Source: Pyropia yezoensis (Eukaryota; Rhodophyta; Bangiophyceae; Bangiales; Bangiaceae). Taken from it: 64,000 nt of DNA. The notes beneath the pieces were generated by a model that saw only the letters and a list, made by a program, of their open reading frames with translations, was not told where the DNA came from and ran no database searches. The DNA is taken from NCBI GenBank assembly GCA_009829735.1, contig CM020619.1, positions 27,802,063 through 27,866,062 on the forward strand. The letters are read 5' to 3'. A program made the translations under genes and the position numbers. Shown here in pieces: positions 41,082 to 60,365 of the stretch (positions are counted from its first letter, which is position 1; each line of letters starts with the position of its first letter).

Positions 41082-41415
41082 CCATTGGAGCTGGTCGTCC
41101 GAAGCTCACAACGGCAGCCTCGGCCAAGTGGGCCAAGAGGACGAACCAACCGTGTCGGATACTGCGGCGACCTAAGGGAGTCCGCCCACCTCGGGTAGGA
41201 CTCCCCAAGAACGTAAACCTACGTCGGGTCATCGCGGTGCTGACGGGTGAGAACTTCCAGGTGGCTGGACGGGTGCAACTTGCCCCCGGCCGCGCCTGTT
41301 GTGCCCGTATCGTACTTGATACCGGGTCAGGAGCCTCCTTGATACGCAAGTCGCTATTACCAAAGGAGATGAAGCTCCAACGCTGGAGGTCTAAAGCTGA
41401 CCATCTGATCGATAT
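41078..41415 (+). pseudogene. pol: Pol N-terminus, copy C (protease part), truncated by copy B
   Basis: About 112 codons, ATG at 41078, with the protease motif VLDTGSGASLIRKS, ending at DHLIDI where the LTR of copy B begins. Downstream pol resumes at 48174. Confidence 0.88.
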
Positions 41416-41883
41416 TGTGGCAAAAACCACTCGCACACACAGTACCCAAGTTGGGGCGGTGTGCGAGGGCTGCCTCCCGTGTCGGGGGAACCGGAAGAAG
41501 TGCAAGTCGCACACACTCTATCCCTGTTGTGGGGCAATCCCCCCACGGACACACAAGAAGATGGTGTGTGGTCCAACAGTTTCTTGGTCGGGACGGGGAC
41601 GCAGGGCCAAGCCCCGCTGTCCCTCCCCTTATCCCCCCAGGGTCCCCTCAGAATCTCGCCACTCAGAATCTCCCACCCCAGCACCTGCCCACCGGGCCAC
41701 ACGAAAATTCAAGACGATAAATGCAGAAAACCCTCAAATCCAAGTTGGATTTACTACTAAGCTAACTATCCCGAACTTAGGGAATACGGACCCAAATGCA
41801 GGGGGAGGAACGGATCAGGCTAGAGGCCTGCCGCCCCTTGCATGGCACGTGTTGCCCCCTACCTGGGGGTCAATACTGCCACA
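41416..41883 (-). repeat. 3' LTR of copy B
   Basis: 468 bp, TGTGGC...GCCACA in plus-strand reading of the reversed LTR; carries the same palindromes as the LTRs of A. The host sequence to its left ends GATCGATAT; the matching right flank was lost in the deletion. Confidence 0.9.
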
Positions 41884-42227: not shown

Positions 42228-44171
42228 ATGGCGACTCCGGGAGTGGAGACGGACTCTCTCGATGAGCGTATGGAGGACACCTCCTACGGTGCAGCGCCTG
42301 CCGGGACTTCCGGCGGGGGCTCCGCGATCGCTCCGGGGGGTGGGACTCCCGCGTCACCCGGCTTTGGGTTGACGGCAGGATCTCCCCCGGAGGCGGGACA
42401 AGTTGTCCCGCGTGAGGCCTTGGGGCGGTGGTTTTACCCCGCTTGGCCTCTGTATGAGGAGGGGTTGACTGTTCTTCGCTGTGGCCGACTCGGCGCAGCG
42501 ATGGGTCGGGTATGGGACCGCCTACGGGAGAAGTATCCCCGTAGGGTCGGGTTCCCTGCCGGCTTCAGGACGGACCAGTTTGCCTTCCTGGACGATGAGG
42601 AGGTCGAGGACGTGCAGCGGGCCAAGGCCATGGTGGACCGCGGGGGAACTATCCCGGGTCCCGGCGACTTGCCGACCTTCACTTGGGACGCGGTGGCAAC
42701 TCGCCCTCCGTACCTTCACGAGGCCGATCCGCACACTCATCACTTTGATGTGCGGATGGAGAAGGACTTCCGGCGAGGTCCCTACTTGGTGACCTCGGCT
42801 CAACTTGAGTTTCCTCAGCAGTCTGCTGCCAGTAAGGAGCAATACTACCCGAAGAAGCCCGAGTGGTGGCCTCAAGTTGAGGTCCCCTACGGGTTCCCGG
42901 CATTGTTGCCACGGTTGCTTGACCACTTCGGCTCCGTCATGTTGACGGCTGGCCCTGATCATCTGGTGTGGGCCATGTTGGCCACCCAGTGGCTCCTCGA
43001 GGTCATGTCGACCTGGGTGTCATGTGTTCAGCGGCGGGGGATGCTCTGGCATCTCCCCCTCCGGCTCATCCAGGGTTTGGAACAGCTCACCCCTCAGCTA
43101 GTTGCTGAGGGGTGCTCGTCAGGACAACTCACTCTACTTGAGGAGATGCTCCGCCTCCACAAGTTTATCGAGTGGGAGAGCATTGAGCACAAGTTGCGCC
43201 GCCCCACTCGGGGGCCCAAGGACGATGGCGCACTTCGCCAGTTCAAATGGGTCGCTCGTGAACTTCACGACGGCCGTGTGGTCCTACGAGAGGGGTTGGG
43301 CATCGGGGACTACCCGTATGCCCCGGGGGTGGATCGTCACACTGCGCCACCCCCGGACAAGCCCATAGTTATGGCTGTGCCCTCATATGATGACCATATG
43401 ACTCAACCTACTGCGGGGGCCCCAAGTCGGGGTCGCAGTTACACCCGGGTACCGCCACCTCGGCGTGCCCCTCCGCTTCCTCCTGTTCCTTTCCAGCCTC
43501 ACGGGAACATCCCGATCAGCGTGGCCGTGGAGTCATCCACACCGGTGTCTCCCAACTTGGGGGCCACCCTCCTGACGGTATACCCCAAGTTGGTGTTACC
43601 GCCCACGCCTCTAACCTCAGAGATGATGATCACCACGTTGGTGCGCACCATTTCCTGGTTGGCCGCGTCGACCGCAACCCTCCAAAGTTCCGAGACTCCT
43701 CAACTTGAGGAGCGCGTTCGTACTGCAGTGGCGACCGCGAGTTGCGAGTCGGTGGCGGAGTTTATGACGGCCGAGTTGGCTCGCATTGGGGCTATTATGC
43801 CCCAGCCAACCCCACTTGGGCGTGGCAAGCGTCGTGCGAGCCGGGCATACTCGCCTCCTCGCCGTCGTCGCCGTCACTCGCGGCGCTCTCCCTCCGTGTC
43901 GGAAGACGAGTTGTCTTACTCCGTCTCGGAGTCCTCTACCCCATCGGAGACGGAGTCTGTCCAGCGTCTGCGTCGCAAACTTGCGCGCAAGACCAGGCAG
44001 AAGAGCAGCCACGGTCGGCGCCACTTGCGCGACCGTGAGGGGCGCGACGGTTCCGACTTGGAGCCGCCGCCCCTTCCAACGAGTGGAGACCGTTATTGGC
44101 GTGGGTCTCGCCGCTCGCCTCCACGTGAGGGCGAGGGCCGTGGAGTGGGAGAGTCTAGCATGCGTGCCTAG
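42228..44171 (+). CDS. Antisense ORF of family-1 element, copy B (intact, 647 aa), unknown function
   Basis: Lies opposite to gag-pol, convergent with pol (111 bp apart), with its 5' end toward the 3' LTR, whose antisense side may supply the promoter. The ATG in GAGAGCCATGG follows a perfect 21-bp odd palindrome (42205-42225). Residues 1-75 are Gly/Ser/Pro-rich; a globular part spans about 75-400 (RWFYPAWPLYEEGLTVLR, GPYLVTSAQLEF, EQYYPKKPEWWPQVEVP, LATQWLLEVMSTWV); then a Pro-rich linker and a very basic Arg/Ser tail (YSPPRRRRRHSRRSPS) that could bind nucleic acid. The core aligns with the family-2 antisense protein. No known domain recognised. It is not an envelope: no signal peptide or clear membrane anchor is seen. 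Confidence 0.8.
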   Translation: MATPGVETDSLDERMEDTSYGAAPAGTSGGGSAIAPGGGTPASPGFGLTAGSPPEAGQVVPREALGRWFYPAWPLYEEGLTVLRCGRLGAAMGRVWDRLREKYPRRVGFPAGFRTDQFAFLDDEEVEDVQRAKAMVDRGGTIPGPGDLPTFTWDAVATRPPYLHEADPHTHHFDVRMEKDFRRGPYLVTSAQLEFPQQSAASKEQYYPKKPEWWPQVEVPYGFPALLPRLLDHFGSVMLTAGPDHLVWAMLATQWLLEVMSTWVSCVQRRGMLWHLPLRLIQGLEQLTPQLVAEGCSSGQLTLLEEMLRLHKFIEWESIEHKLRRPTRGPKDDGALRQFKWVARELHDGRVVLREGLGIGDYPYAPGVDRHTAPPPDKPIVMAVPSYDDHMTQPTAGAPSRGRSYTRVPPPRRAPPLPPVPFQPHGNIPISVAVESSTPVSPNLGATLLTVYPKLVLPPTPLTSEMMITTLVRTISWLAASTATLQSSETPQLEERVRTAVATASCESVAEFMTAELARIGAIMPQPTPLGRGKRRASRAYSPPRRRRRHSRRSPSVSEDELSYSVSESSTPSETESVQRLRRKLARKTRQKSSHGRRHLRDREGRDGSDLEPPPLPTSGDRYWRGSRRSPPREGEGRGVGESSMRA

Positions 44172-44282
44172 TTGGCAGCTGCCTTTGTTGTGAGAGTGTG
44201 AGGGTTAGGGCTGTAGTTTAAAGCCACTCTGCGTACCACTTCGACTTGAAGCACTCTCTTGGCACTGTTGCTCGGCTTTCCC

Positions 44283-47200
44283 TCACGTTGAGGGAGGGCT
44301 GTTAGGGTCTATCTCGTTCCGGGCACAGTACGCCCGGACCTTCTCAGCAGGAAGGTCCTCCACATACTCCCACGTATCATCCTTGGCTTTGTAGCCAAAC
44401 CAACGCACCCTCAACATGAGGCGGTCAGTATCCTCATCCCAGCCGTGGTCGATGAACTTGTCGAACACGTACTCCTGCGGGCCCTGTTTGGCTGCAGGCA
44501 GCGAGGGCAGGCGCCACGTTTTCAAAGCACGCGCCCAAGCTGGGTCGCCTGCAGGCGGTGGTGCAACTTTGACCACGTCCTGTCCGTTCACTGTGCGGAC
44601 CCCATCGTCACTTTCGATGGTGAAGCGCCGCCCATCAGTACGAAGGACCTGGTACGGCCCCTTCGTCTGGAACACCAACTTACCCCCAGTTGGGGTGTGT
44701 GAGTGGACCAATACCCAGTCACCCTGCTCGGGGACATGCTTGGCGTTGCGCACCTTTTTGTCAAAGGTACGCTTGTAGCGCTTTTGTGCTTTGTCCATCT
44801 CAGCCCTGACTTTAGGGATGAGGTTTTCAAGCCTAGCAGCGAACTCCGCCTTACTCTCAGTAGGAGTGGGCGTACTGCCACCATCCTCCCTAGTTGGGAG
44901 CGGCCGCCGCACGGCAATAGACCGCACGCGACGGGGGGTCACAAAAGCGAGGGGTACTTCCCCGGTAGATGAGTGAACCTGCGAATTGTAGGCAGTGGTC
45001 AGAATAGAAATGTATTGGTCCCACGTCTTCACGTGCTCACTCACATAATGGCGCAGCTGCCTAACAATAGTTTTGTTGAAGCGCTCCACCTGCCCATTAG
45101 TTTGTGGGTGGTAGGGGGTGGCATAGTTTGCCTTAACCCCCAACATATCCAGCACTCCTTGAAACAGTACAGACGCAAATTGCGGTCCATTGTCCGATAG
45201 TGTACTATCCGGAATGCCATACGCGGCAACCCAGTGATCTAGGAAGGCTGACACGACCGACATGGCCGTGATCTCTGCCAGTGGGATCGCTCGCGTAAGT
45301 TTCGTGAAGCGGTCACAGATGACCAGGAGGTACTGGTTGCCCTCCTCGGTCACTGGCAGTGGCCCAAGGATGTCCATCGCCAACGCGGCGAAGGGCTCCT
45401 TGGCCGGGAACAATAGCATAGCCGTAGTAGGCCGCCGTTCCATCAGACGGTTCTGTGCACAACTTGTGCAGGCAGCCACCCAACTGTAGATGTCCACCAC
45501 CATGGACGGCCAGTAGTACCTGGTCCTCAGGGTCTGGTACAGTTTACTAGACCCCAGGTGTCCACCCGTGGGAGCGTTATGCTCCCTCTCAAGGATACTG
45601 TCCTTGAGGGATGCGGGGACGACAAGTTGTTCGGTCCCCTGGAATACCCCCCTCCTCATGAGGAGGCCATCGTCTCCCAGGAAGAACCGCGTCTCCGCCA
45701 CTGTATCCAGGGTATCCCTCTGCGACTTGCAGAAGGGATCCTCGGCCTGGGCCTTCACTACTTCGTCCAGGGACAGGGGCAAGTACTTCTTGTTCCCTGG
45801 CGCCTCGGGATTCAACGCCTGACCCGAGCGCGTGACTACCCCCACGATGGGGATGTCCTCATCGACTGGGGTGGTGTCCAGTCCCTCGGTAGGTACCCGA
45901 GAGAGGCCGTCGGCAAGGGCATGTTGCCTGCCAGGTCGGTACTCAATATCAAAGTTGAAGGGTGCAAGTCGCACCCTCCACCGGTTGAGACGAGTGTTCG
46001 TACAGTCCGTCTTGAAGATGAACTGCAACGCGCGGTGGTCACAGCGGATGAGGAACTTCTCACCCTCTAGGTAGTGACGAAGTGACGTCACCGCCCATAC
46101 CACTGCGAGTCCTTCCAACTCGGTGACTCCGTAGTTCTTCTCGGCCGAGTTTAGCCCCTTGCTGAAGTATCCCACCGGCAAGTACTCCTTGTCCGGCTGT
46201 TGCTGAAGCAACACACAACCAAGTTGGTCGTAGCTAGCGTCCACATCCAGGATGTAGTGGCCTCCCAACCTGGGAATAGCCAGGATAGGGGGCTTCAGCA
46301 GAAGGTCCCGAAGAGTCTCAAAGGATTCCTGCTCCACCCGACTTGGGGGAGGCAGGTTCTTCGGTAGCGTTGAGCTCACTAACTCATTCAACGGCTTCGC
46401 CACTTTGGCGAAGCCCTTAGTGAAACGTCGGTACACGTTACACATCCCGAGGAAGCTCCTCATCTGGGTCTGGGTCCGGGGATACTGAGCCTTGCGGATG
46501 GCCCTCAAGTTTTTCTCGTTGACACTGAGACGCCCCGGACGGACAACATGTCCCAAGTACTCCACCTCTTGAGTGAAGAGGTGGCACTTACTCGCCTTCA
46601 GTGACACTCCGCCGTCAGCAAGTAGCTTGAACACCTGGCCAAGATGGCCAATGTGTTCCTCCGGACTTCGGGAGAACACAATGATATCGTCTAGGTACAC
46701 GAGACAGATCTGCCACCGTACTCCGGCCAGAATCATGTCCATAGCGCGCTGGAAAGTTGCCGGCGCGTTACACAGGCCAAACGGTAGACGCTTGCACTGG
46801 TAGGTACCACAGTGACAGGTAAAGGTAGTTTTATGCCTGTCCTCCGGGGCAATGGGAATTTGCCAGTACCCCGCGTTACAGTCCAGGGTAGAGAACACGT
46901 TTGCCTTCCCCAGAGAGTCCAGACAGTCATCCATCCGAGGTAGGGGATAACTATCCTTCACCGTGCTCTCGTTGAGCTTACGGTAGTCGATACAGAACCG
47001 GGGGGTCCCATCAACTTTGGGGACGATCACCACCGGACTCGCCCACTCGGCGTTGCTGGCCTCGATCACATCGAGGGCCTCCATGCGAGCAACTTGCTCC
47101 TTAACGAGGGCCCTTGAACGGGGTCCCCCCCTATACGGTTGTTGGCGTATAGGGGGCGCACCGGGTTTCAACTCGATCCGGTGTTGGGTAGCTCTCATGA

Positions 47201-48173
47201 GTCCCAATTGACCATCCCACAACTTGTGATATTGGTCCAAGAGGCGTTCAACTTGAACCCTCAACCTGGGTGGAACACCCTCCATGTTTACCTGGGGCCG
47301 AGGAGAGGCGGCCGACTTGGCTTGATGCTTCTCCTTTCCGGACTTCGGGTCGCTACTTGCGCCCGCGCTGAGGGTGACCGCTACTACCGGTCCCTCGTGT
47401 TGGTCGATATAGCCGAACTTGGCCCCCGACTTGAAGAACTTGGGCGACGAGCTCAGGTTCATCACCTGGATCCTCCACGGGACTCCGGCTTTGGAGTCCA
47501 TCGTGCCAAGGGCAACATGCACTTGGTGCTTGCGAGCAAGACGGGGGTTAGGGTGCACCAACCCGTTCCCCGCATAATCAGTTACAACATCCACGTGCGC
47601 CACCGAGTTGGGGGGCAACATGACTTTACGGGCTAAACGCAGAGTAGCAGTAAACCCTTCCCTCACAGAACAAACAGGCTTCGACTGTGAAACTGTCACA
47701 GGAGCCACAGACTTTCCCTTACCCAGGATGGGGATAGTCTCCCCATTCATCAACTTGACCCAGTACTCAGGGCCACAAATCAAAGGCACTTGTGTTACGA
47801 CATAAGGGGTACCCAGAAGCAGGGGTACCGATATATTCTCAACTACACCATAGGTCACGTCGACCTCATGGGTCCCCAACCTAGTTGGTAGGGTCACGGC
47901 ACCAACGATGGGAAGTACCCCACCATTGATATCGATCAGATGGTCAGCTTTAGACTTCCAGCGTTGGAGCCTCATCTCCTTTGGTAATAGCGACTTGCGT
48001 ATCAAGGAGGCTCCTGACCCGGTATCAAGTACGAAACGGGCACAACAGGCACGGCCGGGGGCAAGTTGCACCCGTCCAGCCACCTGGAAGCTCTCACCCG
48101 TCAGCACCGCGATGACCCGACGTGGGTTTACGTTCTTGGGGAGTCCTACCCGAGATGGGCGGACTCCCTTAGG
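44283..48173 (-). CDS. pol: Pol polyprotein, copy B (5'-truncated, otherwise intact motifs)
   Basis: Open from the junction at 48173 to the stop at 44283; the first internal ATG is at 48107. Protease DTGSGAS, RT with [11 protein letters not shown] (YLDD codons 46686-46697), RNase H DVDASYDQLG, integrase HHCC, MDILGPLP, LSDNGPQFAS and GQVERFNKT, and chromodomain WFGYKAKDDTWEYVEDL. Unlike copy A, the catalytic residues are all present, but without gag, PBS and 5' LTR the copy is not autonomous. It aligns with A throughout and differs mainly at scattered single bases. Confidence 0.92.
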   Translation of the reverse strand, partial: PKGVRPSRVGLPKNVNPRRVIAVLTGESFQVAGRVQLAPGRACCARFVLDTGSGASLIRKSLLPKEMRLQRWKSKADHLIDINGGVLPIVGAVTLPTRLGTHEVDVTYGVVENISVPLLLGTPYVVTQVPLICGPEYWVKLMNGETIPILGKGKSVAPVTVSQSKPVCSVREGFTATLRLARKVMLPPNSVAHVDVVTDYAGNGLVHPNPRLARKHQVHVALGTMDSKAGVPWRIQVMNLSSSPKFFKSGAKFGYIDQHEGPVVAVTLSAGASSDPKSGKEKHQAKSAASPRPQVNMEGVPPRLRVQVERLLDQYHKLWDGQLGLMRATQHRIELKPGAPPIRQQPYRGGPRSRALVKEQVARMEALDVIEASNAEWASPVVIVPKVDGTPRFCIDYRKLNESTVKDSYPLPRMDDCLDSLGKANVFSTLDCNAGYWQIPIAPEDRHKTTFTCHCGTYQCKRLPFGLCNAPATFQRAMDMILAGVRWQICLVYLDDIIVFSRSPEEHIGHLGQVFKLLADGGVSLKASKCHLFTQEVEYLGHVVRPGRLSVNEKNLRAIRKAQYPRTQTQMRSFLGMCNVYRRFTKGFAKVAKPLNELVSSTLPKNLPPPSRVEQESFETLRDLLLKPPILAIPRLGGHYILDVDASYDQLGCVLLQQQPDKEYLPVGYFSKGLNSAEKNYGVTELEGLAVVWAVTSLRHYLEGEKFLIRCDHRALQFIFKTDCTNTRLNRWRVRLAPFNFDIEYRPGRQHALADGLSRVPTEGLDTTPVDEDIPIVGVVTRSGQALNPEAPGNKKYLPLSLDEVVKAQAEDPFCKSQRDTLDTVAETRFFLGDDGLLMRRGVFQGTEQLVVPASLKDSILEREHNAPTGGHLGSSKLYQTLRTRYYWPSMVVDIYSWVAACTSCAQNRLMERRPTTAMLLFPAKEPFAALAMDILGPLPVTEEGNQYLLVICDRFTKLTRAIPLAEITAMSVVSAFLDHWVAAYGIPDSTLSDNGPQFASVLFQGVLDMLGVKANYATPYHPQTNGQVERFNKTIVRQLRHYVSEHVKTWDQYISILTTAYNSQVHSSTGEVPLAFVTPRRVRSIAVRRPLPTREDGGSTPTPTESKAEFAARLENLIPKVRAEMDKAQKRYKRTFDKKVRNAKHVPEQGDWVLVHSHTPTGGKLVFQTKGPYQVLRTDGRRFTIESDDGVRTVNGQDVVKVAPPPAGDPAWARALKTWRLPSLPAAKQGPQEYVFDKFIDHGWDEDTDRLMLRVRWFGYKAKDDTWEYVEDLPAEKVRAYCARNEIDPNSPPST

Positions 48174-49550
48174 CCGGAGTCCCGTGGAGGATACAGGTGA
48201 TGAACCTGAGCTCGTCGCCCCAGTACTTCAAGTCGGGAGCCAAGTTCGGCTATATCGACCAACACGAGGGACCGGTAGTAGCGGTCACCCTCAACGCGGG
48301 CGCAAGTAGCGACCCGAAGTTCGGGAAGGAGAAGCATCAAGCCAGGTCGGCCGCCTCTCCTCGGCCCCACGTGAACATGGAGGGTGTCCCACCCAGGTTG
48401 AGGGTTCAAGTTGAACGCCTCTTGGACCAATATCACAAGTTGTGGGATGGCCAATTGGGACTCATGAGAGCCACCCAACACCGGATCGAGTTGAAGCCCG
48501 GTGCACCCCCTATACGCCAACAACCGTATAGGGGTGGACCTCGTTCAAGGGCCCTCGTTAAGGAGCAAGTTGCTCGCATGGAGGCCCTCGATGTGATCGA
48601 GGCCAGCAACGCCGAGTGGGCGAGTCCGGTGGTTATCGTCCCCAAAGTTGATGGGACCCCCCGGTTTTGTATCGACTACCGTAAGCTCAACGAGAGCACG
48701 GTGAAGGACAGTTATCCCCTACCTAGGATGGACGACTGTCTGGACTCCCTGGGGGAGGCGAACGTGTTCTCTACCCTGGACTGTAACGCGGGGTACTGGC
48801 AAATTCCCATTGCCCCGGAGGACAGGCATAAAACTACCTTTACCTGTCACTGTGGTACCTACCAGTGCAAGCGCCTACCGTTTGGTCTGTGTAACGCGCC
48901 GGCAACTTTCCAGCGCGCTATGGACATGATTCTGGCCGGAGTACGGTGGCAGATCTGTCTTGTGTACCTAGACGATATCATTGTGTTCTCCCGAAGTCCG
49001 GAGGAACACATTGGCCATCTTGGCCAGGTGTTCAAGCTACTTGCTGACGCCGGTGTGTCACTGAAGGCGAGTAAGTGCCACCTCTTCACTCAAGAGGTGG
49101 AATACTTGGGACATGTTGTCCGTCCGGGGCGTCTCAGTGTTAACGAGAAGAACTTGAGGGCCATTCGTAAGGCTCAGTACCCCCGGACCCAGACCCAGAT
49201 GAGGAGCTTCCTCGGGATGTGTAACGTGAACCGACGTTTCACCAAGGGCTTCGCCAAGGTGGCGAAGCCGTTGAATGAGCTAGTGAGCTCAACGCTGCCG
49301 AAGAACCTGCCTCCCCCAAGTCGGGTGGAGCAGGAATCCTTTGAGACTCTTCGGGACCTTCTGCTGAAGCCCCCTATCCTGGCTATTCCCAGGTTGGGAG
49401 GCCACTACATCCTGGATGTGGACGCTAGCTACGACCAACTTGGTTGTGTGTTGCTTCAGCAGCAGCCGGACAAGGAGTACTTGCCGGTGGGATACTTCAG
49501 CAAGGGGCTAAACTCGGCCGAGAAGAACTACGGAGTCACCGAGTTGGAAG
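48174..49550 (+). pseudogene. pol: Pol fragment of copy C (protease end, RT, start of RNase H), interrupted
   Basis: Plus-strand frame from about RIQVMNLSSSPQYF through RT with [11 protein letters not shown] to TELE, where the family-2 LTR begins. It continues after that element at 59207. One RT residue differs (VNRRFTKG versus VYRRFTKG). Confidence 0.9.
49546..49550 (+). repeat. Target site duplication GGAAG, left copy
   Basis: GGAAG abuts the family-2 5' LTR here and recurs at 59202-59206 right after the 3' LTR; the uninterrupted pol sequence has a single GGAAG at this point. Confidence 0.92.
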
Positions 49551-50123
49551 TGTAGCATCCCTGGCCCCGACTTGGCGCCGACCCGGGACTGCAACCAGAG
49601 GGCACCAGGTGCCAGAACACGCCCGCCGTGTGGCGATGGTTGGCGGCCGTGGCCCGTGCCCGGCACTGGGATGCGGTGGACTACGCTATCCACACGCGAG
49701 AGAGGGATTTCTGATGTGTTTTTGCATATTTGTGAGGGACTTGATTTGAGAGAATTTGAGTGTGAGATTAGTGAGTGGGAATAGAATTAGTAGTGATAGT
49801 GGCCCCCGACCTGACGAGGTTAGACTCGGGTCGGGGCCACTCGGGGTTATGGGGGGGGCTACCGGGCCAACGTGCCGGGGTTCCCCCAGATGCACGTTAA
49901 GAGGGACAGCGAGGCGCCCTCGGCCCGCGCCCTCAGGGAAAAAGACAACTGCGCGTTTGCTTTCCTCTTCCCCGTGTGCACTACCGTGCGTATCTGTTTG
50001 CCATGCGAGCAGGCACGTGAGGCAACAGGCATACCATTCTCGTAGTTCCCCTTTCTGCGTTACCTGTCCCTTTCCCCCGAGGGATATTGACACGTGTCTG
50101 AGAGGATCGAGTTTTATACCACA
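49551..50123 (+). repeat. 5' LTR, family 2 copy 1
   Basis: 573 bp from TGTAGCATCC to TATACCACA. Unrelated in sequence to the family-1 LTR apart from the ends. Confidence 0.95.
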
Positions 50124-50127
50124 TATT

Positions 50128-50144
50128 TGGTGGAGCAGCAGGGG
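50128..50144 (+). promoter_or_regulatory. Primer-binding site, family 2
   Basis: TGGTGGAGCAGCAGGGG four bases after the LTR, identical for 17 nt to copy A of family 1, although the flanks are unrelated. Confidence 0.65.
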
Positions 50145-50332
50145 ATTGGAGTGTTTGAGAAGAGACATTTGGGAGCAGCGGTTGCGTTGTTCCTATTCTG
50201 TCTTTTTCTGTGGTTTGGGAATTATTTGCACCCGTTCACGGGAACCCCATTCCTGGCTCCCCAACCCCTCTCTTGTGGTCTTGCGATCTTTGGACACGCA
50301 GGTAACTGGACTGTGGCTGTCAAGAGACCAAC

Positions 50333-52093
50333 ATGGCTACCCTCCCTGGCACGACGGTGCCCGAAGGGGTAGACCCCGCGTCCCTTGACGCATCCCTGGT
50401 CACCGCGGGGGACGGTGCCCAACCCGGCGTTCTCCCTACGGGTGAAGCAGACCTGGGCGGGACATCCGGTAGTGGACTGGAGTCTACAGGCGGCCAAGTA
50501 CCCCCTGCTCCCGTTCCTCCGGCTGTTCCTCCTGTGGGAGCCACCCCGGGGTCAACGGCGTTTGAGTCCGCTCGCAGCAGACGTCTCCCTCCTGTCGGTT
50601 CTACTCTTCAACCTCCAGGGATAGCCCCTGGTGTGTTTACTCCTGGACCCACACATGGCAGCTGGGTGTATACACCTCTTCCTGTGGGCACTAGCAGTGC
50701 CAGAGGCACCGCTATGACTGGTTCTACGGGTCTTCCTGAGACTTCAACTCCTGGGACCGGCCAAGCTTTTCCTCCCCTTGCGTCCTATGGGGCGGGGAGC
50801 TCCAAGACCGGTGACCGGAGCAGCCGTAGGCGTCGGCGTCGTCGCCGCCGCTCTAGCACCAGCGAGACCAGTTCCTCCAGCTCTGAGGAGGGATATGACT
50901 GGGATGCATCTCCCGGTCCTACCCGGCGCAGGCTAGTCGAGTTCGACTTTCCTGCCCACCAAGTGGGAGATGCCACCCTGAACAAGGTCACGTATTGGGG
51001 TAACTACCGGCTGGAGAACCAAGACCAAGGTTACACCCGGAAGATGGCCAAGAAGATGGCATCCCTGAACCGGCGAATGCAGCCGAGCTTTGGGGGGCAT
51101 CCTAAGTTTTCCGGGAAGAGACCGGCGCTTATCTTTGCCTTCCTGCGCCGGTTTGTCAAGGCATGCAATGACAACGATGTGTCCGAGGGCAAGGCTCTCT
51201 ATCTCCTGGTTAACTTCATGACCGGAGAAGCGGAACAGCGGTTTGCACAGGTTCTACCAGACTCTGCCGGGCACATTGTTGGACGTACCGTCGCGAGTTA
51301 TCCGGAGGCGGTCAACTGGCTCCTGTCCAACTACGCAGACGCGGACTCCCTGCGTAAGGCAGTCGGTAGGCTGAACCGGGCAACCATGGAGAGACAAGAG
51401 ACTCCAGAGGCGTTCGCCCGTCGTTTCCGGGAGATGAGCGATGCTTGTGGCAACGTTTACCCTGAGGACAGGCTCAAGATGATCTTCTCGGAGGGGCTTC
51501 CTGAATATCTTCAAGTGGATGCGGAGAACTACAACCAGGAACATCAAGAACATACCTTCCAGCAGTTGATGGCCTACACCCAGGGCAAGCACCGGCAAGC
51601 CAAGGCCCTCCAGGCTCCTATGGTATCAACCCCCAAGCCGTTGTCGCGAGTTCGTCCCGGACCCGACAAGTATAAGGGAGGTGATAACCCTGTACCGGTA
51701 CTCGCAGTTGGCGAGGCCTCACCCATGGAGTCAAGGGACAAGTGGGGCGGCTTCGTTTCTAAGGAGCAACCTTCCCTGGTCGCCCCCAAGCAGATCAGGA
51801 ACCAGCGGTTCCGGTCTTGCTGGCTGTGCCAGAAGGAGGATCATATGTCCTACCAGTGCCCGACCATTCCCGAGGATCTCCAGGAGAAACTCAAGCGTCA
51901 AGGACTGGTGTTTGCAAAGGCGGTCAACTGGGCTGACCGGCGGGCACCCTCCAAGATGGACAAGGCACAGGTACATGCCATCCGAGTGGCAACCTTACAG
52001 AGCATCACGGAGGCTCTGGCAAGGGAAGCTCCTACGGACTTTGACCTGGAGACCGAAACCTCTAAGGACTCCTCGGAGCCGGGAAACGAGTAG
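50333..52093 (+). CDS. gag: Gag, family 2 (586 aa)
   Basis: Starts MATLPGTTVPEGVD; Pro/Ser/Gly-rich first 170 residues with an Arg cluster (RSSRRRRRRRRRSS, near 160-175), then a helical capsid-like part (about 230-440: LIFAFLRRFVKACNDNDVSE, EGLPEYLQVDAENYNQEH), a CCHC zinc knuckle CWLCQKEDHMSYQC at 496-509, and an acidic tail ending PGNE. The layout and the phrase LRRFVKACNDN parallel family-1 Gag (LRRFTKACDDN), so the two families are related. Stop TAG at 52091. Confidence 0.94.
   Translation: MATLPGTTVPEGVDPASLDASLVTAGDGAQPGVLPTGEADLGGTSGSGLESTGGQVPPAPVPPAVPPVGATPGSTAFESARSRRLPPVGSTLQPPGIAPGVFTPGPTHGSWVYTPLPVGTSSARGTAMTGSTGLPETSTPGTGQAFPPLASYGAGSSKTGDRSSRRRRRRRRRSSTSETSSSSSEEGYDWDASPGPTRRRLVEFDFPAHQVGDATLNKVTYWGNYRLENQDQGYTRKMAKKMASLNRRMQPSFGGHPKFSGKRPALIFAFLRRFVKACNDNDVSEGKALYLLVNFMTGEAEQRFAQVLPDSAGHIVGRTVASYPEAVNWLLSNYADADSLRKAVGRLNRATMERQETPEAFARRFREMSDACGNVYPEDRLKMIFSEGLPEYLQVDAENYNQEHQEHTFQQLMAYTQGKHRQAKALQAPMVSTPKPLSRVRPGPDKYKGGDNPVPVLAVGEASPMESRDKWGGFVSKEQPSLVAPKQIRNQRFRSCWLCQKEDHMSYQCPTIPEDLQEKLKRQGLVFAKAVNWADRRAPSKMDKAQVHAIRVATLQSITEALAREAPTDFDLETETSKDSSEPGNE
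52081..52087 (+). promoter_or_regulatory. Putative -1 ribosomal frameshift heptamer, family 2
   Basis: G GGA AAC in gag phase followed by GAG TAG. The pol frame is closed upstream at TAA 52060-52062 and has no ATG before 52222, so a -1 slip here (GGG AAA CGA GTA) is the simplest way to make Gag-Pol. In family 1 the same spot has ATGA, here GTAG. Confidence 0.68.
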
Positions 52094-55000
52094 GGCAGGC
52101 GCTCTCCCCAAGTGTCTTCCCGAATCTCCAACGGCAGGGTACTTCTACCTGTTCTCCCCTTGCGTGCCGGGAGAAAGGACGGCAGTTACCTGCTCAACCG
52201 GTAGCCGCCTGGACACCCTGTTTGTTCAAGGGGACCTTGCTCGTCCTGCGTAAGGAAAACCTCAAGATTAATGCTCGTATGCGTGTGGGGGATAGCCTCC
52301 CCCAAGCTGTTACGCCGGTGGTCGACACGGGAGCCGGACCAAGCGTCATCACTGAGAACCTGTTACCTCCGGGCTGGCGTCGACATGCCTGGAGAGCGCC
52401 TACCAAGACCCGGATTGTAGACGCATCAGGTCAAACCCTACGACCGCTTGGCCGTCTTCCCGTCGCCATCTATGTCAACAATGAACCAATGCTTTTTCCC
52501 TTTCTAGTAGTCAAGACCTTATCAGTCCCCCTCATCCTAGGCTGGGACTTCCAGAAGCAGCATGTCAAGAGCATCCTACCCGGAGAAGGAAAGGTGCAGT
52601 TCAACCATGGGGTTGTGTCACCAGTGCTGGAGCACCTGGACACCAAGGTTCGTGTGGCCAAGAACCAGAAGGAACGCATCCCACCCTCCACCTTGACCCT
52701 CATCAAACCGGTGCTCCTACCTCCTCGCTCGGAGACCAAGGTTCAAGTCACGACCCGGACTGCAGGTCAATGCCTGATCTACGGACGCAAGGAATTTCTG
52801 GCGAAACACCGATTATACCTAGCCCACGGACACCACAAGAAGGTGGAGAGGCACACCCCGTTCTCGGTGCTGATCGTCAACGTGAGCCGGAAGCCAATAA
52901 CCCTCGCCAAGGGCACTCGAGTTGGTACAGCAGAGCCTTACCGGGGGTCCGCCCGCGCTATGAGCAAGGAAGACCTCTTCAACCTGCAACAAGAGCTGGC
53001 ATCCAACTTGACGGCCTTAGACGTATCTCCGGAACAAGAGCAGGCTGGCCGTACTACTCCGAAGCCGGAACAAGCACCGCCCGGGATGCCGAAGGTCAAC
53101 CAAGAAAACGTCCCTCCCGACTTGAAGGAGGCACTGGAGAAGCTTCTCCAGGAATATCGGCACCTGTGGTCCGGAGAGCTGGGCAAGATGGACGCCACCC
53201 TACACCGGATTCAACTCAAGCCAGATGCCAAACCAGTGCACATGCAACCATACCGGGCTGGACCTCATCGCCGGGATGAGATTGAGAAGCAGGTTAACAA
53301 GATGCTCAAGATGGATGTTATCGAGCCGTCTGATGGCGAGTGGGCTTTCCCGGTGGTAGTCGTCCCGAAACCTGGCGGTCACTTCCGTTTCTGCGTTGAC
53401 TACAGACGCCTGAACGAGATGACAGTCAAGGATGTATACCCGATACCCCGGATGGATGATTGCCTCGACTTTCTTGGTGATGCCACCCTCTTCTCGACGC
53501 TGGATTGTAATGCCGGTTACTGGCAGATCCCTCTGGCTGACGAGGACAAGGACAAGACTACCTTCACGTGCCACATGGGACTGTTCCGGTGCAAGCGTCT
53601 CCCTTTTGGTCTCACTAATGCTCCGGCAACCTTCCAGAGAGCCATCGACATCATCCTGTCGGGGCTAAGGTGGAGAACATGTTTGGTCTACCTGGACGAC
53701 ATCATTGTTTTCTCCAAGACCCCAGCGGAACACCTGGAGCACCTTCGAGAGGTCCTGGCCCTCCTGTCCAAGGCTGGAGTTACCCTCAAGGCCGAGAAGT
53801 GCCACCTGTTTGAGACTGAGGTGGAGTACCTGGGGCACGTGCTGAGTCCGGGGGAGCTCCGAGTCAACGAGAAGAACATCAAGGCCCTCCGGCATGCACG
53901 GCAACCTAAAACCCAGACGGAACTCAAGAGCTTCCTGGGTATGTGCAACGTCTACCGCCGGTTCGTACGGGACTACGCTCTGATTGCCCGGCCCTTGACC
54001 AAGCTTACTAGCAAGAAGCTTCCAGCACAACTCCCGGTGTTCGACGAGAAGCAGACAGCAGCCTTCGAAGAGCTCAAGAAGCGCCTGACCACCACTCCAG
54101 TACTGGCGTTACCCAAGCGGGAGGGTCAGGTTGTTCTGGAGACTGACGCCTGTGGCGTCCAGGTGGGGTGCTCACTACTCCAGCAACAACCTGATGGGCA
54201 CTTCCTCCCGATAGGCTACTACAGTCGCGTCTTGACTCCAGCCGAGAAGAACTATTCCACGACCGAGCGCGAGTGCTTGGCGGTCGTCTGGGCTTGCTTC
54301 CTGTTACGTCCATATCTTGAAGGACAAGAGTTCCTCATCCGGACGGACCACGCCAGTCTAAGGTGGCTGCTATGCATGGACAGCAGTCAAGGAAGGGTCG
54401 CCCGGTGGCGCCTACGCCTTTCGGAGTTCAAGTACAAGGTGTGCACCAGAGCAGGGAGGGAGCACCACTGCGCCGACACCATGTCCAGGCTGGAGACTCC
54501 TGCAGCCGATACCGGTCCTATCCCGGAGGAAATACCTTGCTTCATCCTCCCGAATGTCGGACGTGGCTGGCACGCTCCCCTGTACGAGACACCTGACGCT
54601 CATCAACCGGTAACCATTCACCGGATGCTGGAGGCACAATTGACGGACCCTCAATGCTTGGAGCTTCGCCACCAAATGGACCTGAACCGGAACAGTCGCT
54701 TCTCCGAGTCTACAGACGGACTCCTGGTACGGGTGTCACCCTTCGATGGGGCAACTCAAGTCTACGTACCCCGGAGCCTACGGACTGACATCCTACGCCT
54801 GGAGCACTTGTCTCCCCAGGCCGGGCATCCTGGTATCAATCGGATGTATGCTTCCATGAGACGACATTATTACTGGGAAACCATGGCCAGTGACGTCCAT
54901 AAGTGCCTGGAGGCTTGTATTTCTTGTGCAAGGAACCGGTTGTCCCAGAGGAAGAAGACTTCTAAGCTACGCCTATTCCCTGCGGCGGAGCCCTTTGCAA

Positions 55001-56181
55001 GCTTAAGCATGGACATCCTGGGGCCCCTACCTGAGACCTCCAGTGGCAACATATACCTGCTCATCATTTGTGACCGGTTCTCCAAGTTCACTCGAGCAAT
55101 CCCGTTGAGAACCATCACGGCTCTGGATGTCACGTCGGCCTTCTGCGAGTACTGGATAGCTGCCTACGGCCCTCCAGACTCCGTCTTAACCGACAACGGT
55201 CCCCAGTTTGCATCCCTGTTCTTCCAAGGAGTCTGTGACCTGATGGGCATCAAGAACTTGTACACCACGACGTACCACCCTCAAACGAACGGTCAGGTGG
55301 AACGATTCAACCGGACCCTAGTGGACATGCTACGGCACTACGTGGAGGAGCACCAAGAAGACTGGGACGAGCTCCTGGCTGTCCTCACTCTAGCCTACAA
55401 CTCCCGAGTTCACCGGACAACGGGAGTCGCTCCACTCGACTTTGTCACCCCAAGGCGGCTGACCAACTTCTCCCTGGAAAGAATACCGGATGGTCTCCAG
55501 CCTGCACTGAAGTCAGGTCCCAAGGCAAAGGATGAGTTCCTGGAACAACTAAAGCTCCTGCTCCCAAGAGTCAAGGAGTCAATCTCAAAGACCCAGGAGC
55601 GATACAAGCGGGACTATGACAAGGGTGTCCGGGAAAAGAACAAGGAACTGGGTGGTGGCGACTGGGTTTTTGTGGACAACCATAGCAAGACCCGGGGGAA
55701 GCTGGACTCTAAGACGGATGGACCTTATGAGATTCTCAATACGGATGGCTGGACCTTCCTTCTAGACGTGGATGGCTCTCCGTACCGGGTGAGCAGCGAC
55801 CATGTCACCCGAGCTCCACCGCCAAGCCAACGGGACTTGACCCGGCGTAAGCGGACTGCGATACCCTGGCTATCCCAAGAAGAAGGTCGGGAATTTGTCT
55901 ACGTCAAGTTTGTCGACCATGCCTGGAGAGATGGACGCCTGTACCTGCGAGTACGCTGGTTCGGCTTTAACCCAGCAGATGATACATGGGAACCCTCAAA
56001 CCGGCTACCCATCGCGGACGTCTGTGCCTACACGCGACGGAACGGGATTGAGGGCACTCCCGTGGCCAGAGCCGGCAAGATTCTGGAGTCGGACACGGAG
56101 GAGGACCAAGAGGACGGGGCCAACCAAGACCCTGGGGACGAGACGAGCTCACCCGCAACGGATGCGGAACAAGAGGATTGA
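52087..56181 (+). CDS. pol: Pol polyprotein, family 2 (expressed as Gag-Pol by -1 frameshift, inferred)
   Basis: Open from the heptamer to TGA 56179-56181, about 1364 codons. Numbering from the M at 52222: protease VVDTGAGPSV near 33, RT with [11 protein letters not shown] (YLDD 490-493), RNase H ETDACGVQVGCSLLQQQ, integrase zinc finger HLSPQAGHPG...CISCARNR, catalytic triad in MDILGPLP, LTDNGPQF (D991) and GQVERFNRT (E1027, spacing DD35E), and a C-terminal chromodomain VKFVDHAWRDGRLYLRVRWF, GFNPADDTWEPSNRLP. All catalytic residues are present. The chromodomain places it in the chromovirus branch, which targets insertion to chromatin marks. No in-frame initiator ATG near the start. Confidence 0.95.
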   Translation, partial: RVGQALSPSVFPNLQRQGTSTCSPLACREKGRQLPAQPVAAWTPCLFKGTLLVLRKENLKINARMRVGDSLPQAVTPVVDTGAGPSVITENLLPPGWRRHAWRAPTKTRIVDASGQTLRPLGRLPVAIYVNNEPMLFPFLVVKTLSVPLILGWDFQKQHVKSILPGEGKVQFNHGVVSPVLEHLDTKVRVAKNQKERIPPSTLTLIKPVLLPPRSETKVQVTTRTAGQCLIYGRKEFLAKHRLYLAHGHHKKVERHTPFSVLIVNVSRKPITLAKGTRVGTAEPYRGSARAMSKEDLFNLQQELASNLTALDVSPEQEQAGRTTPKPEQAPPGMPKVNQENVPPDLKEALEKLLQEYRHLWSGELGKMDATLHRIQLKPDAKPVHMQPYRAGPHRRDEIEKQVNKMLKMDVIEPSDGEWAFPVVVVPKPGGHFRFCVDYRRLNEMTVKDVYPIPRMDDCLDFLGDATLFSTLDCNAGYWQIPLADEDKDKTTFTCHMGLFRCKRLPFGLTNAPATFQRAIDIILSGLRWRTCLVYLDDIIVFSKTPAEHLEHLREVLALLSKAGVTLKAEKCHLFETEVEYLGHVLSPGELRVNEKNIKALRHARQPKTQTELKSFLGMCNVYRRFVRDYALIARPLTKLTSKKLPAQLPVFDEKQTAAFEELKKRLTTTPVLALPKREGQVVLETDACGVQVGCSLLQQQPDGHFLPIGYYSRVLTPAEKNYSTTERECLAVVWACFLLRPYLEGQEFLIRTDHASLRWLLCMDSSQGRVARWRLRLSEFKYKVCTRAGREHHCADTMSRLETPAADTGPIPEEIPCFILPNVGRGWHAPLYETPDAHQPVTIHRMLEAQLTDPQCLELRHQMDLNRNSRFSESTDGLLVRVSPFDGATQVYVPRSLRTDILRLEHLSPQAGHPGINRMYASMRRHYYWETMASDVHKCLEACISCARNRLSQRKKTSKLRLFPAAEPFASLSMDILGPLPETSSGNIYLLIICDRFSKFTRAIPLRTITALDVTSAFCEYWIAAYGPPDSVLTDNGPQFASLFFQGVCDLMGIKNLYTTTYHPQTNGQVERFNRTLVDMLRHYVEEHQEDWDELLAVLTLAYNSRVHRTTGVAPLDFVTPRRLTNFSLERIPDGLQPALKSGPKAKDEFLEQLKLLLPRVKESISKTQERYKRDYDKGVREKNKELGGGDWVFVDNHSKTRGKLDSKTDGPYEILNTDGWTFLLDVDGSPYRVSSDHVTRAPPPSQRDLTRRKRTAIPWLSQEEGREFVYVKFVDHAWRDGRLYLRVRWFGFNPADDTWEPSNRLPIADVCAYTRRNGIEGTPVARAGKILESDTEEDQEDGANQDPGDETSSPATDAEQED

Positions 56182-56326
56182 GAAGAAGGGAACGGGTATA
56201 TCAAGGAGAACACGCAATGCAAGCATGGAACAATCAAGGAAACCAAGCACCCGCTCGAGCAACCCTTCTCTCCGCCTCTTCCCTCCTCGCTTCTCCCAAG
56301 ACCCTCACCCTCCTTGCCTCCAACTA

Positions 56327-58444
56327 CTACTCTCGGCGCGGACGCTGAGCCGCGGGAGTGTCCTCCGGCGCTACCTCCGCGGTACGACGGGAACCGGAGG
56401 AAGACGGGATGACGTAGTGCGGTGGACGCGGCGCATCCCGGTATGACGCCATCGGAGTAGTACCAGTAGTTGCCGGTGGCTCCCGCTCATCCAGATATGT
56501 CCGTCGGCGCCGCTGGAAGCCCGTGAAGGTCTCTGACCACTGCTGGGCCAGGCCATGCCGCGTCAAAGTCGCCAGAAGTTCGCCAACCACCGGGTTGTTC
56601 GACATCTGGCCGCTGTCCGCGCAAGCAAACACCCGGTCGACCACGTCGTTCAAGACGCTGGCGTAAGTACCCAGCACCAGAGAGGACCCGACGCCTTCAA
56701 CCTGCACCGGAAGACGACCCAGCTGGTCTTCAATCATGCCGACGTCGTACTGGTCGCATGTTGGACCACCTTGGTTCAGGTACCAGTCAGGCACCCGGAA
56801 GCGGGTGAGGCGCAGAGTCGGCGCCGGAATCTCGAACCGGCCCGAGGATGACACTACCGGACGGTCCACAACGGCCCCCGAGACCGGAGTACCCAACTCC
56901 AGCGGAGGCACAGCGCCGCCGGCGTTGGAAGAAGGCGTCCGGGGTAGAGCGGCCGGAGTAATCGGCGACCGCACGGCCACTCCCAGACTCGCCGCAGACA
57001 AGCGCGGTGCCGGAGGAGCTTGAAGTACTGGCACAGCCGGAACAGGGCGCGGACGTGCCGGTGACGGTTCAGGCGAGGCGACCGGGGCGACAGGGGCAAC
57101 CGGAGGAAGTGGAGCCGCCGCAGACGCCCGACCGACCGCCGCGGCCCATCCCGACTCCTGCACCGGCGGTCCAACTGGCAGAAGATCAAGGGCGGCCGGA
57201 GCAGGAAAGCTACCTAGCTGCGGCCACGCCGGAAGCGGCGTCGCCAGCTGCACCTTGGCCGGAGAAGACTGGTAGACCACCTGCGCCCAACCGAAGCCAT
57301 CCCGACGCGGGCGGTTCTGGTCGGCAATCGCGTTCAAGAAGTTCCGGTCATGCACCGGCACCAGACGCCGGAAGTCGATCATCGCCTGGAAGAGCTCCTT
57401 GTACTCCTCGTCCTGGCTGCACAGGAAGTCGACGGTCAACTTGTCGACAATCCAGACCATCAGGAGGTCAGGGAGAAACCAAAGCCGGTTGGACACCAAG
57501 ACCTCATGAAGCCAGTGGTTGGCCGCCAAGACTGTCATCTCGGACGTGTACATCATGTACGGGATTGAGTGGAAGAAGCCCTTGATCGACGCCTGAGTCA
57601 AGGCGTCCAAGAAGTACCAGGTGCAAGGGATGCTGGAAGGAGCAAACCCGACCGGGATCTCGACTTCCTGCTGCTGCGGGATGACCTTGGGGTAGTACGC
57701 CGCCCGGTTAGCCTTGTCCAGCTTCCAGAACTCCTGGTGGTTGCAGCTCACGAGGAAGTCACGCTGACGCCCGCGTCGCTCACCCTGCTCCCGTGCCGGC
57801 GACAACTTGGAGTATTTCCGGGTCAAGAAAGGCGGCTCCAGAGCGACCATGCTCGGACGGGGGTCGCAGTTCAAGCTTCCCGACCCCTTGAGCGCCTCGT
57901 CCCAGACCTTGAGCGCCCGGTGGACGTACCCTTCCTCCTCCGGCCACCGGAGAACGGACGCGGACACGCGACGCTCGGTCAGGGGTAGATCCAGTACCAG
58001 CGCGAAGGGGAGATCCTCCAGACGAGCAGCCCAAGAGGAACCCGAGAAGCTCTGGGAGCGGTCTTGTGCCAGGCGCATCTGGTCCGCCGTATGAAGACGT
58101 GCCTTGTCCATCTCGGTCAAGACCCCGCGCTGGAGTTCCTTGCGCCAGAGGTCCATGCAATCCTGCTGGCACTGGGCCGCGCCGGCGTTGCCGACCACCG
58201 TGGAGTAACGCCGGGCCGCCAGAGGGTCCTGCCCAAGGAGCATCTCCGGGAGACCCTCCGGGGGGGCCTCGACCGGGTGCATCGCGGAAGCCGGGGGAAC
58301 TCGATCCGTCCCCGCCGTGGCGACCGGCGCCGGCACCGACATCCGAGGAACCGGAGGCAGGAGAGGGGCACGACGACCCGAGTTCTCCTCCGCAACACTC
58401 GCCGCCGGAACCACGGGCCCAGCTTGGATCTCGGAACTGGACAT
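56327..58444 (-). CDS. Antisense ORF of family-2 element (705 aa), unknown function
   Basis: Runs opposite to gag-pol, stop 145 bp from the pol stop, 5' end toward the 3' LTR. ATG 58444 (MSSSEIQAGPVVPA); the frame stays open further back into the LTR, but that part is not conserved. The core at about 195-330 contains WPEEEGYVHRALKVWDEALK, MVALEPPFLTR, RDFLVSCNHQEF, AAYYPKVIPQQQEVEIPVGF and LAANHWLHEVL, which line up in order with EEVEDVQRAK, ATRPPYLHE, GPYLVTSAQLEF, YYPKKPEWWPQVEVPYGF and LATQWLLEV of family 1. A long Pro/Ala-rich linker and a C-terminal part (TLRLTRFRVPDWYLNQ) follow. No known domain recognised. Confidence 0.78.
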   Translation of the reverse strand: MSSSEIQAGPVVPAASVAEENSGRRAPLLPPVPRMSVPAPVATAGTDRVPPASAMHPVEAPPEGLPEMLLGQDPLAARRYSTVVGNAGAAQCQQDCMDLWRKELQRGVLTEMDKARLHTADQMRLAQDRSQSFSGSSWAARLEDLPFALVLDLPLTERRVSASVLRWPEEEGYVHRALKVWDEALKGSGSLNCDPRPSMVALEPPFLTRKYSKLSPAREQGERRGRQRDFLVSCNHQEFWKLDKANRAAYYPKVIPQQQEVEIPVGFAPSSIPCTWYFLDALTQASIKGFFHSIPYMMYTSEMTVLAANHWLHEVLVSNRLWFLPDLLMVWIVDKLTVDFLCSQDEEYKELFQAMIDFRRLVPVHDRNFLNAIADQNRPRRDGFGWAQVVYQSSPAKVQLATPLPAWPQLGSFPAPAALDLLPVGPPVQESGWAAAVGRASAAAPLPPVAPVAPVASPEPSPARPRPVPAVPVLQAPPAPRLSAASLGVAVRSPITPAALPRTPSSNAGGAVPPLELGTPVSGAVVDRPVVSSSGRFEIPAPTLRLTRFRVPDWYLNQGGPTCDQYDVGMIEDQLGRLPVQVEGVGSSLVLGTYASVLNDVVDRVFACADSGQMSNNPVVGELLATLTRHGLAQQWSETFTGFQRRRRTYLDEREPPATTGTTPMASYRDAPRPPHYVIPSSSGSRRTAEVAPEDTPAAQRPRRE

Positions 58445-58628: not shown

Positions 58629-59201
58629 TGTAGCATCCCTGGCCCCGACTTGGCGCCGACCCGGGACTGCAACCAGAGGGCACCAGGTGCCAGAACACGC
58701 CCGCCGTGTGGCGATGGTTGGCGGCCGTGGCCCGTGCCCGGCACTGGGATGCGGTGGACTACGCTATCCACACGCGAGAGAGGGATTTCTGATGTGTTTT
58801 TGCATATTTGTGAGGGACTTGATTTGAGAGAATTTGAGTGTGAGATTAGTGAGTGGGAATAGAATTAGTAGTGATAGTGGCCCCCGACCTGACGAGGTTA
58901 GACTCGGGTCGGGGCCACTCGGGGTTATGGGGGGGGCTACCGGGCCAACGTGCCGGGGTTCCCCCAGATGCACGTTAAGAGGGACAGCGAGGCGCCCCTC
59001 GGCCCGCGCCCTCAGGGAAAAGACAACTGCGCGTTTGCTTTCCTCTTCCCCGTGTGCACTACCGTGCGTATCTGTTTGCCCTGCGAGCAGGCACGTGAGG
59101 CAACAGGCATACCATTCTCGTAGTTCCCCTTTCTGCGTTACCTGTCCCTTTCCCCCGAGGGATATTGACACGTGTCTGAGAGGATCGAGTTTTATACCAC
59201 A
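58629..59201 (+). repeat. 3' LTR, family 2 copy 1
   Basis: 573 bp; differs from the 5' LTR by one inserted C, one missing A and one A/C substitution by eye. Followed by GGAAG. Confidence 0.95.
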
Positions 59202-59793: not shown

Positions 59794-60365
59794 TGTAGCA
59801 TCCCTGGCCCCGACTTGGCGCCGACCCGGGACTGCAACCAGAGGGCACCAGGTGCCAGAACACGCCCGCCGTGTGGCGATGGTTGGCGGCCGTGGCCCGT
59901 GCCCGGCACTGGGATGCGGTGGACTACGCTATCCACACGCGAGAGAGGGATTTCTGATGTGTTTTTGCATATTTGTGAGGGACTTGATTTGAGAGAATTT
60001 GAGTGTGAGATTAGTGAGTGGGAATAGAATTAGTAGTGATAGTGGCCCCCGACCTGACGAGGTTAGACTCGGGTCGGGGCCACTCGGGGTTATGGGGGGG
60101 CTACCGGGCCAACGTGCCGGGGTTCCCCCAGATGCACGTTAAGAGGGACAGCGAGGCGCCTCGGCCCGCGCCCTCAGGGAAAAAGACAACTGCGCGTTTG
60201 CTTTCCTCTTCCCCGTGTGCACTACCGTGCGTATCTGTTTGCCATGCGAGCAGGCACGTGAGGCAACAGGCATACCATTCTCGTAGTTCCCCTTTCTGCG
60301 TTACCTGTCCCTTTCCCCCGAGGGATATTGACACGTGTCTGAGAGGATCGAGTTTTTATACCACA
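59794..60365 (+). repeat. 5' LTR, family 2 copy 2
   Basis: 572 bp, identical to copy 1 except for run-length changes (7 versus 8 G near 60093, one C fewer near 60158, one T more near 60355). Confidence 0.93.

Follow-up and report, generated by a model that had tools for sequence, protein, structure and literature searches.

An antisense gene under apparent purifying selection between pol and the 3' long terminal repeat of Ty3-type retrotransposons in Pyropia yezoensis

Two families of Ty3-type retrotransposons are present in a 64,000-nucleotide stretch of the genome of the red alga Pyropia yezoensis (contig CM020619.1, positions 27,802,063 to 27,866,062; hereafter the window), and both carry a long open reading frame (ORF) on the strand opposite their own gag and pol, between the pol stop codon and the 3' long terminal repeat (LTR). 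This arrangement raises the question of whether the frames constitute a third element gene and, if so, what its product might do. In family 1, the frame (as1; 42228..44171 (+)) begins with an ATG and is intact over 647 amino acids (aa), and a sister copy of as1 (13633..15573 (+), in family 1 copy A) has one in-frame stop and 94% aa identity to it. The family 2 frame (as2; 56327..58444 (-)) is intact over 705 aa. Both lie tail-to-tail with pol, the convergent stops being separated, as calculated from the coordinates, by 111 bp in family 1 and 145 bp in family 2. A preliminary description of this DNA had reported ORFs of 650-705 codons convergent with pol in both families, as well as the sister copy with its single stop, and we recovered all of them at the same coordinates. 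As detailed below, position and orientation (in families 1 to 3), homology, purifying selection, and high copy number are directly supported; the gene is real and selected, and probably old. We further propose, with moderate confidence, that it is a third gene of the P. yezoensis Ty3 group, convergent and antisense, that has been inherited together with pol and encodes an intracellular accessory factor.

The longest ATG-initiated ORF in the region between pol and the LTR was 647 aa in family 1 and 705 aa in family 2, compared to no more than 461 and 448 aa, respectively, in 500 dinucleotide shuffles of each. BLASTP alignment of as1 with as2 gave 44.7 bits (E 9e-9) at 23% identity, and when scored against shuffled sequences the pair reached 43.9 bits versus maxima of 26.9 bits (1000 full shuffles) and 28.9 bits (1000 windowed shuffles). 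Among 242 long frames from the window, the antisense ORFs alone stood out, with next-best scores of 23.5 bits for as1 and 26.9 bits for as2. A profile-profile match between the two proteins, set beforehand as a test of the claimed relationship, was also obtained, with hhalign aligning as2 aa 170-362 to as1 aa 125-314 (E 3.5e-5, probability 72). The antisense proteins have no similarity to gag or pol. Identity between families 1 and 2 is 46% for pol, 28% for gag, and 23% for the antisense protein; the antisense-gene DNA of the two families gave no match of at least 80 bp at E 1e-10, and their LTRs have just ~15-18 bp stretches in common. Thus the proposal that homologous antisense proteins accompany unrelated LTRs and a clearly diverged pol is borne out.

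The proteins consist of a low-complexity N-terminal part, a conserved core of ~200 aa, a proline-rich linker, and a less conserved C-terminal part. The core spans aa 140-345 of as1 (42645..43262 (+)), where it includes PPYL, YLVT..EF, YYPK, VEVPYGF, and LWHLP, and aa 195-405 of as2 (57230..57862 (-)); most members carry RPYL/PPYL, EF, YP..WW..VEVP.GFPA..P, and LWHLP. Of six ordered sequence blocks proposed earlier to be common to the two proteins, five occur in both and in order, while EE..V.RA is one residue off in family 1.

Homologs were also found beyond the two families of the window. A search of the genome with the pattern VE[VI]PxGF, built to exclude the window copies, gave 40 matches versus 4 for a reversed control, most of them resembling family 1 or 2 variants by eye. 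Six of these loci were fetched. One of them (L062; E 6e-21 to as1) revealed a third family. The three loci L064-L066 proved to be decayed relatives of family 1, and the remaining two (L061 and L063) had no match to either antisense protein. With L062 as query, 141 match rows were returned, some of which are pieces of one copy and a few of which come from other families. In a family 3 copy at C3:13263563-13273802, an antisense ORF of 638 aa (as3) lies between pol and the LTR. Its end is separated from the pol stop by 128 bp and its start from a 541-bp LTR by 1005 bp; the two pieces of this LTR match the 5' LTR at 99.8 and 100% identity. Families 1 to 3 therefore all have the aORF-3R placement, antisense to gag-pol and between pol and the 3' LTR. 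A partial, decayed ORF at a fourth locus (L068) is 53% identical to as3 and lies beside a pol end that is 51% identical to family 1 pol over 85 aa; what is seen at L068 is thus adjacency to pol, and the genome search returned no other match above 61%. The preliminary description had named a lack of additional homologs in other Ty3 copies as grounds for rejecting its claim, and such homologs do exist.

Comparison of the three families gave 30% identity over 456 aa for as1 and as3 (E 9e-45), 23% for as1 and as2 (E 4e-8), and 25% for as2 and as3 (E 3e-8), while the corresponding pol proteins are 63% (families 1 and 3), 46% (1 and 2), and 45% (2 and 3) identical. Families 1 and 3 are thus the closest and family 2 the most distant for both genes, and this shared order of divergence is most simply read as descent of the antisense gene together with pol from a single ancestor. 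These results agree with the earlier suggestion of an old element gene, and suggest that the antisense gene predates the split of the families. Two further features of family 3 were observed. Between the antisense gene and the LTR (L067, 3658-4662) there are imperfect repeats with ~72% identity across 217 bp; an excerpt of PMC11963269 describes tandem repeats as common in the corresponding region of Retand elements. Additionally, residues 1-37 of the as3 query recur at 97% identity within a 4080-codon open frame (G000:C1:1250194-1250304).

Evidence for use of the protein comes from variation among copies. Between family 1 copies A and C there are 59.5 synonymous and 41.5 nonsynonymous differences in the antisense frame, a ratio of nonsynonymous to synonymous substitution rates (dN/dS) of 0.22, compared to 1.41 and 2.68 when the same strand is read in its other two frames; the differences fall at codon positions 1, 2, and 3 in the numbers 26, 14, and 62 (of 646 each). 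For comparison, dN/dS is 0.14 for pol of copies A and C and 0.45 for gag of copies A and B. We then fetched 30 host-genome loci per family, drawn from at least 150 scored matches in family 1 and from 63 in family 2, each set including the window's own copy (L031 for family 1, L003 for family 2), and counted variants against that copy among intact copies only. The full ORF was intact in 27 of the 30 family 1 copies and in all 30 from family 2. The 27 family 1 copies yielded 91 variants that are synonymous and 47 that are not (ratio 0.18), and the 30 family 2 copies 70 and 25 (ratio 0.13), while the other two frames gave 1.9-3.1 in the fetched copies of both families. The family 1 LTR, which is also largely open in antisense, served as a control and showed no comparable constraint, with ratios of 0.61-1.73 over six frames. 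Judged from these patterns of substitution, the antisense ORF is a real gene under protein-level purifying selection. As with aORF-3R genes, it is kept in most copies, with constraint like that of other element proteins, among the best-scoring copies.

The gene is also abundant. With the family 1 and 2 cores as queries, at least 150 scored places were found in the P. yezoensis genome for each family, and among the 150 matches listed per family the core was free of stops in all but one for family 1 (149) and all but two for family 2 (148). Scaffolds of 43.6, 34.3, and 29.4 Mb are given for this species in an excerpt of PMC7423979, which also mentions PacBio full-length cDNA. The presence of the gene in high copy, in at least three families, and under protein-level constraint within a 107-Mb genome of three chromosomes makes its function testable, and the divergence between families is sufficient to reveal which residues matter.

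Searches for relatives of the protein gave no convincing match in Pfam (five proteins), in PHROGs or NCBIfam (as1 and as2), or in the PDB (as1, as2, and two profiles), and within these libraries the earlier statement that no described family matches holds. Virus and prokaryote contig collections likewise contained no relative, viral contigs having been scanned with as1, as2, the core and five-protein alignments, and pol, and genome contigs with the core alignment. PF04195 (Transposase_28) matched neither the proteins nor the host genome in a search run without a positive-control genome. Several weak candidates were set aside: a Rieske presequence in the PDB (E 0.005-0.41), which falls within the Pro/Ala-rich part of as2; a single-strand binding protein (E 0.44) and bL17c (E 0.057), also from the PDB; and Pfam DUF641 in the C-terminal part of as1 (E 0.078, below the cut-off). 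A likeness in spacing between TRP28 (L34..P46-N47) and as1 (L231..P243-D244) was rejected as well, given that as2 lacks this spacing and there is no PF04195 match. No transmembrane segment was detected, the best 19-residue hydropathy being 1.23 in as1, 1.54 in as2, and 1.38 in as3.

Several other explanations for the frames were considered. Chance opening in GC-rich DNA would be in keeping with the GC content of 62-64% around the antisense ORFs and with the long antisense frame, free of constraint, in the family 1 LTR, but it is refuted by ORF length, homology, selection, the third family, and the fourth locus, and we give it practically no credence. It could instead be the antisense RNA itself that matters, pairing with genomic RNA and tuning silencing, with the open frame incidental. 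Transcripts of the two strands would converge, and such effects are discussed for plant elements by Vicient and Casacuberta (in an excerpt of PMC7264820). However, the variation is biased toward synonymous sites in one frame, and the proteins are homologous between families whose antisense genes lack a DNA match (at least 80 bp, E 1e-10). Protein-level constraint thus largely refutes RNA as the sole function, which we consider quite improbable, although RNA and protein roles could coexist.

Retroviruses carry env after pol, and the corresponding position of the frames might suggest an antisense product that is envelope-like or sits on the particle surface. This is very improbable, as as1, as2, and as3 all lack a transmembrane segment and the known env-like genes are in sense (according to an excerpt of PMC7264820). 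Better placed, though still unlikely, is the capture of a host gene or a gene from another mobile element, once, by an ancestral element that it would serve through its old cellular activity. Antisense orientation and the lack of similarity to gag or pol fit the insertion of a foreign unit, but the members scanned have no convincing relative in Pfam, NCBIfam, PHROGs, or the PDB, and no copy outside an element was recognized among the genome hits, most of them uninspected. Capture concerns the origin of the gene and is compatible with its being an accessory gene.

We therefore return to an accessory gene inherited with pol. Given its orientation and position, the ORF needs a transcript from the element's minus strand, and this mRNA would start either within the 3' LTR or in the sequence that separates this LTR from the ATG, and would run towards pol. 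The distance from LTR to ATG is 344, 184, and 1005 bp in families 1, 2, and 3, respectively. On the antisense strand near the outer end of the family 2 LTR, a TATAAA sequence (59191-59196) was observed as a candidate antisense TATA box. Constraint at the protein level means that the protein is used and, since copies must transpose to leave descendants, the simplest explanation for a frame that stays open in most scored copies is a product aiding its own element; elements that lose the gene would presumably cease spreading, which would keep the frame open. The product is probably a non-membrane accessory factor acting inside the cell on the element's own cycle, and would most likely be nuclear, regulating expression, silencing, or integration, roles that have also been put forward for the Grande gene23 and Retand TRP28 proteins. 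Activation, counter-silencing, and help with integration are indistinguishable here, and both function and promoter are what we infer.

A number of points weigh against this interpretation. AlphaFold models were unusable (mean predicted local distance difference test scores of 33.5 and 40.2), suggesting helices at most. As1 and as2 each have an arginine-rich cluster close to the C terminus that as3 lacks, so a common nuclear signal is not established. Sequences upstream of the three ATGs had short matches only (best 12 bp, E 0.03-0.06). By hand count of the 150 rows listed per family, the stop-to-stop frame falls short of the full ORF in 16 for family 1 and in 22 for family 2, so some copies are broken outside the core. 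With respect to selection, one family 3 pair gave a ratio of 0.37, indicating weaker constraint, and the fetched loci were the best-scoring ones, which lowers nonsynonymous counts within the query. The query covered all of as2 for family 2 but only aa 140-345 for family 1, and because the family 1 ratios stay low outside it (0.12 in the N-terminal part, 0.28 in the C-terminal part), constraint in this family is independent of the bias. Finally, one frame of the pol strand also has a low ratio, 0.28 between copies A and C and 0.22-0.23 among fetched copies. This frame contains 25 and 24 stops, and a low ratio is expected for it because its third positions face those of the antisense gene.

The elements carrying the gene are arranged in the window as follows. 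Family 1 copy A, on the minus strand, has LTRs that are 96% identical (3' LTR 12826..13294 (-), 5' LTR 21353..21821 (-)) and pol at 15685..19668 (-). Copy B (38547..41415 (+)) runs from its 5' LTR (38547-39015) through to the start of pol and includes gag with a CCHC knuckle (39135-41081 (+)). Copy C (41416-48176 (-)), which contains as1, runs from its 3' LTR (41416..41883 (-)) through to the pol start, with pol at 44283..48107 (-) matching reverse transcriptase, RNase H, and integrase, and more weakly protease and chromodomain; homology to copy A stops at 48176, with no gag or 5' LTR beyond. Copies B and C abut at 41415/41416, and the start of pol occurs twice, in inverted orientation (41168-41415 and 47929-48176), a layout that points to rearrangement more than to a clean insertion. 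The complete family 2 element (49551-59201 (+)) interrupts a further piece of family 1 pol (48161-49550 and 59202-59338); the element is bounded by the target site duplication GGAAG and has LTRs 99.5% identical (5' LTR 49551..50123 (+), 3' LTR 58629..59201 (+)), gag at 50333..52093 (+), and pol at 52222..56181 (+). A second family 2 copy (59794..64000 (+)) ends at the window edge, and a full-length antisense ORF lies past this edge (G000:C2:27868638-27870752). The two family 2 copies are 99.8% identical over 4.2 kb and are separated by a run of 455 Ns (59339-59793) that may conceal the remainder of the split family 1 element.

All three pols scanned against Pfam contain reverse transcriptase, RNase H, and integrase, and their C termini have chromodomain-like matches to PF00385 (E 9e-4, 4.5e-4, and 4.8e-5) that at 19.5-23.6 bits lie under the gathering score of 25.1, so that the label "chromovirus" used in the preliminary description rests on sub-threshold matches in three pols. 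Brown algal elements with a chromodomain are not chromoviruses, according to an excerpt of PMC12477816.

The LTRs of all three families, otherwise unrelated, have in common the sense-strand motif TAAG..GAGGGACAGC (GTTAAGAGGGACAGC in family 2), located at 13021-13041, 21547-21567, 38800-38820, 41611-41631, 49902-49915, 58980-58993, and 60144-60157, and in the LTR of locus L071. Exact matches in the window are confined to LTRs, and the motif is possibly a core promoter element. Primer-binding sites are near-identical across families, reading TGGTGGAGCAGC followed by A or G and GGGG, or TGGTGGATCAGCGGGGG in family 3 (39018-39034, 50128-50144, and just after 2704 in L071); ARAGORN found no tRNA within the window. 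The antisense frame of the family 1 LTR is open at 38463-39014 (-) and 41416-41883 (+), with one stop in one of four copies, and contains a Cys-rich, zinc-cluster-like stretch. This stretch was rejected as an extra exon, as it shows no protein-level constraint and is not found in translations of the family 2 LTR. Elsewhere in the window, host-gene ORFs lie at 5755-9243 (-), 2618-5320 (+), and 1696-4926 (-); the V-ATPase 116-kDa subunit is a host gene in one unbroken ORF, and other host-gene ORFs partially match domains of the iron hydrogenase C-terminal and Fe-S biosynthesis types. GC content reaches 0.81-0.82 at 22-28 kb (22000-28000).

The role of antisense genes in LTR retrotransposons is an open problem in the field (reviewed in an excerpt of PMC7264820), and several known systems bear comparison with the Pyropia gene; the properties of the published systems given here are those in excerpts of the sources cited. 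A survey of extra ORFs in plant elements found their proteins to be highly heterogeneous, concluded that several sources had contributed them in independent acquisitions, and reported no non-chromoviruses in its algae (PMC6317226). Env-like genes lie on the sense strand and encode a transmembrane segment, whereas the Pyropia ORFs are antisense and encode none. ORF2 of PvRetro13 from Phaseolus vulgaris is an antisense aORF with the same placement between pol and the 3' LTR (PMC7264820), but it carries an SMC domain, and neither this nor any other Pfam domain is present in the Pyropia proteins. Likened by description only, HBZ and related genes of human T-cell leukemia viruses are also antisense, with HBZ expressed from the 3' LTR side to give a nuclear product, but belong to animal retroviruses (PMC11963269, PMC7264820); brtn, an additional antisense gene of Boty from Botrytis cinerea (PMC8365987, PMC7264820), is likewise comparable by description only and differs in coming from the fungal kingdom.

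Close parallels in placement and in retention in most copies are found in the Retand lineage, where Grande gene23, RIRE2, and Retand ORF4 (TRP28, PF04195) are antisense between pol and the 3' LTR and are kept in most copies in angiosperms (PMC11963269, PMC7264820), the maize Grande gene having its own promoter and a nuclear protein (PMC7264820). The carriers differ, those of the Retand lineage being non-chromoviruses of angiosperms and those in Pyropia being red algal with chromodomain-like pol ends, as do the proteins, TRP28 carrying the PF04195 domain that was not matched in Pyropia. Among titles and the beginnings of abstracts in the open-licence literature, with Chlamydomonas REM1 left out, we found no antisense gene in an algal or red algal Ty3 element. 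Since the architecture is known elsewhere, the TRP28 domain is lacking, and no red algal case was found in this literature, the variant appears to be new and the kind known. It is quite possible, though we propose it only tentatively, that a red algal Ty3 lineage has three obligatory genes, the third of which, beside gag and pol, encodes in antisense a protein with a new fold that the element needs to spread, either independent of the plant and fungal ones or deeply related to them; an autonomous antisense gene between pol and the 3' LTR would then represent a recurrent or ancient solution in Ty3 biology. In architecture the Pyropia gene is like the antisense accessory genes known from Grande/Retand and Boty, while its protein family is its own, and this architecture is now placed in red algae.

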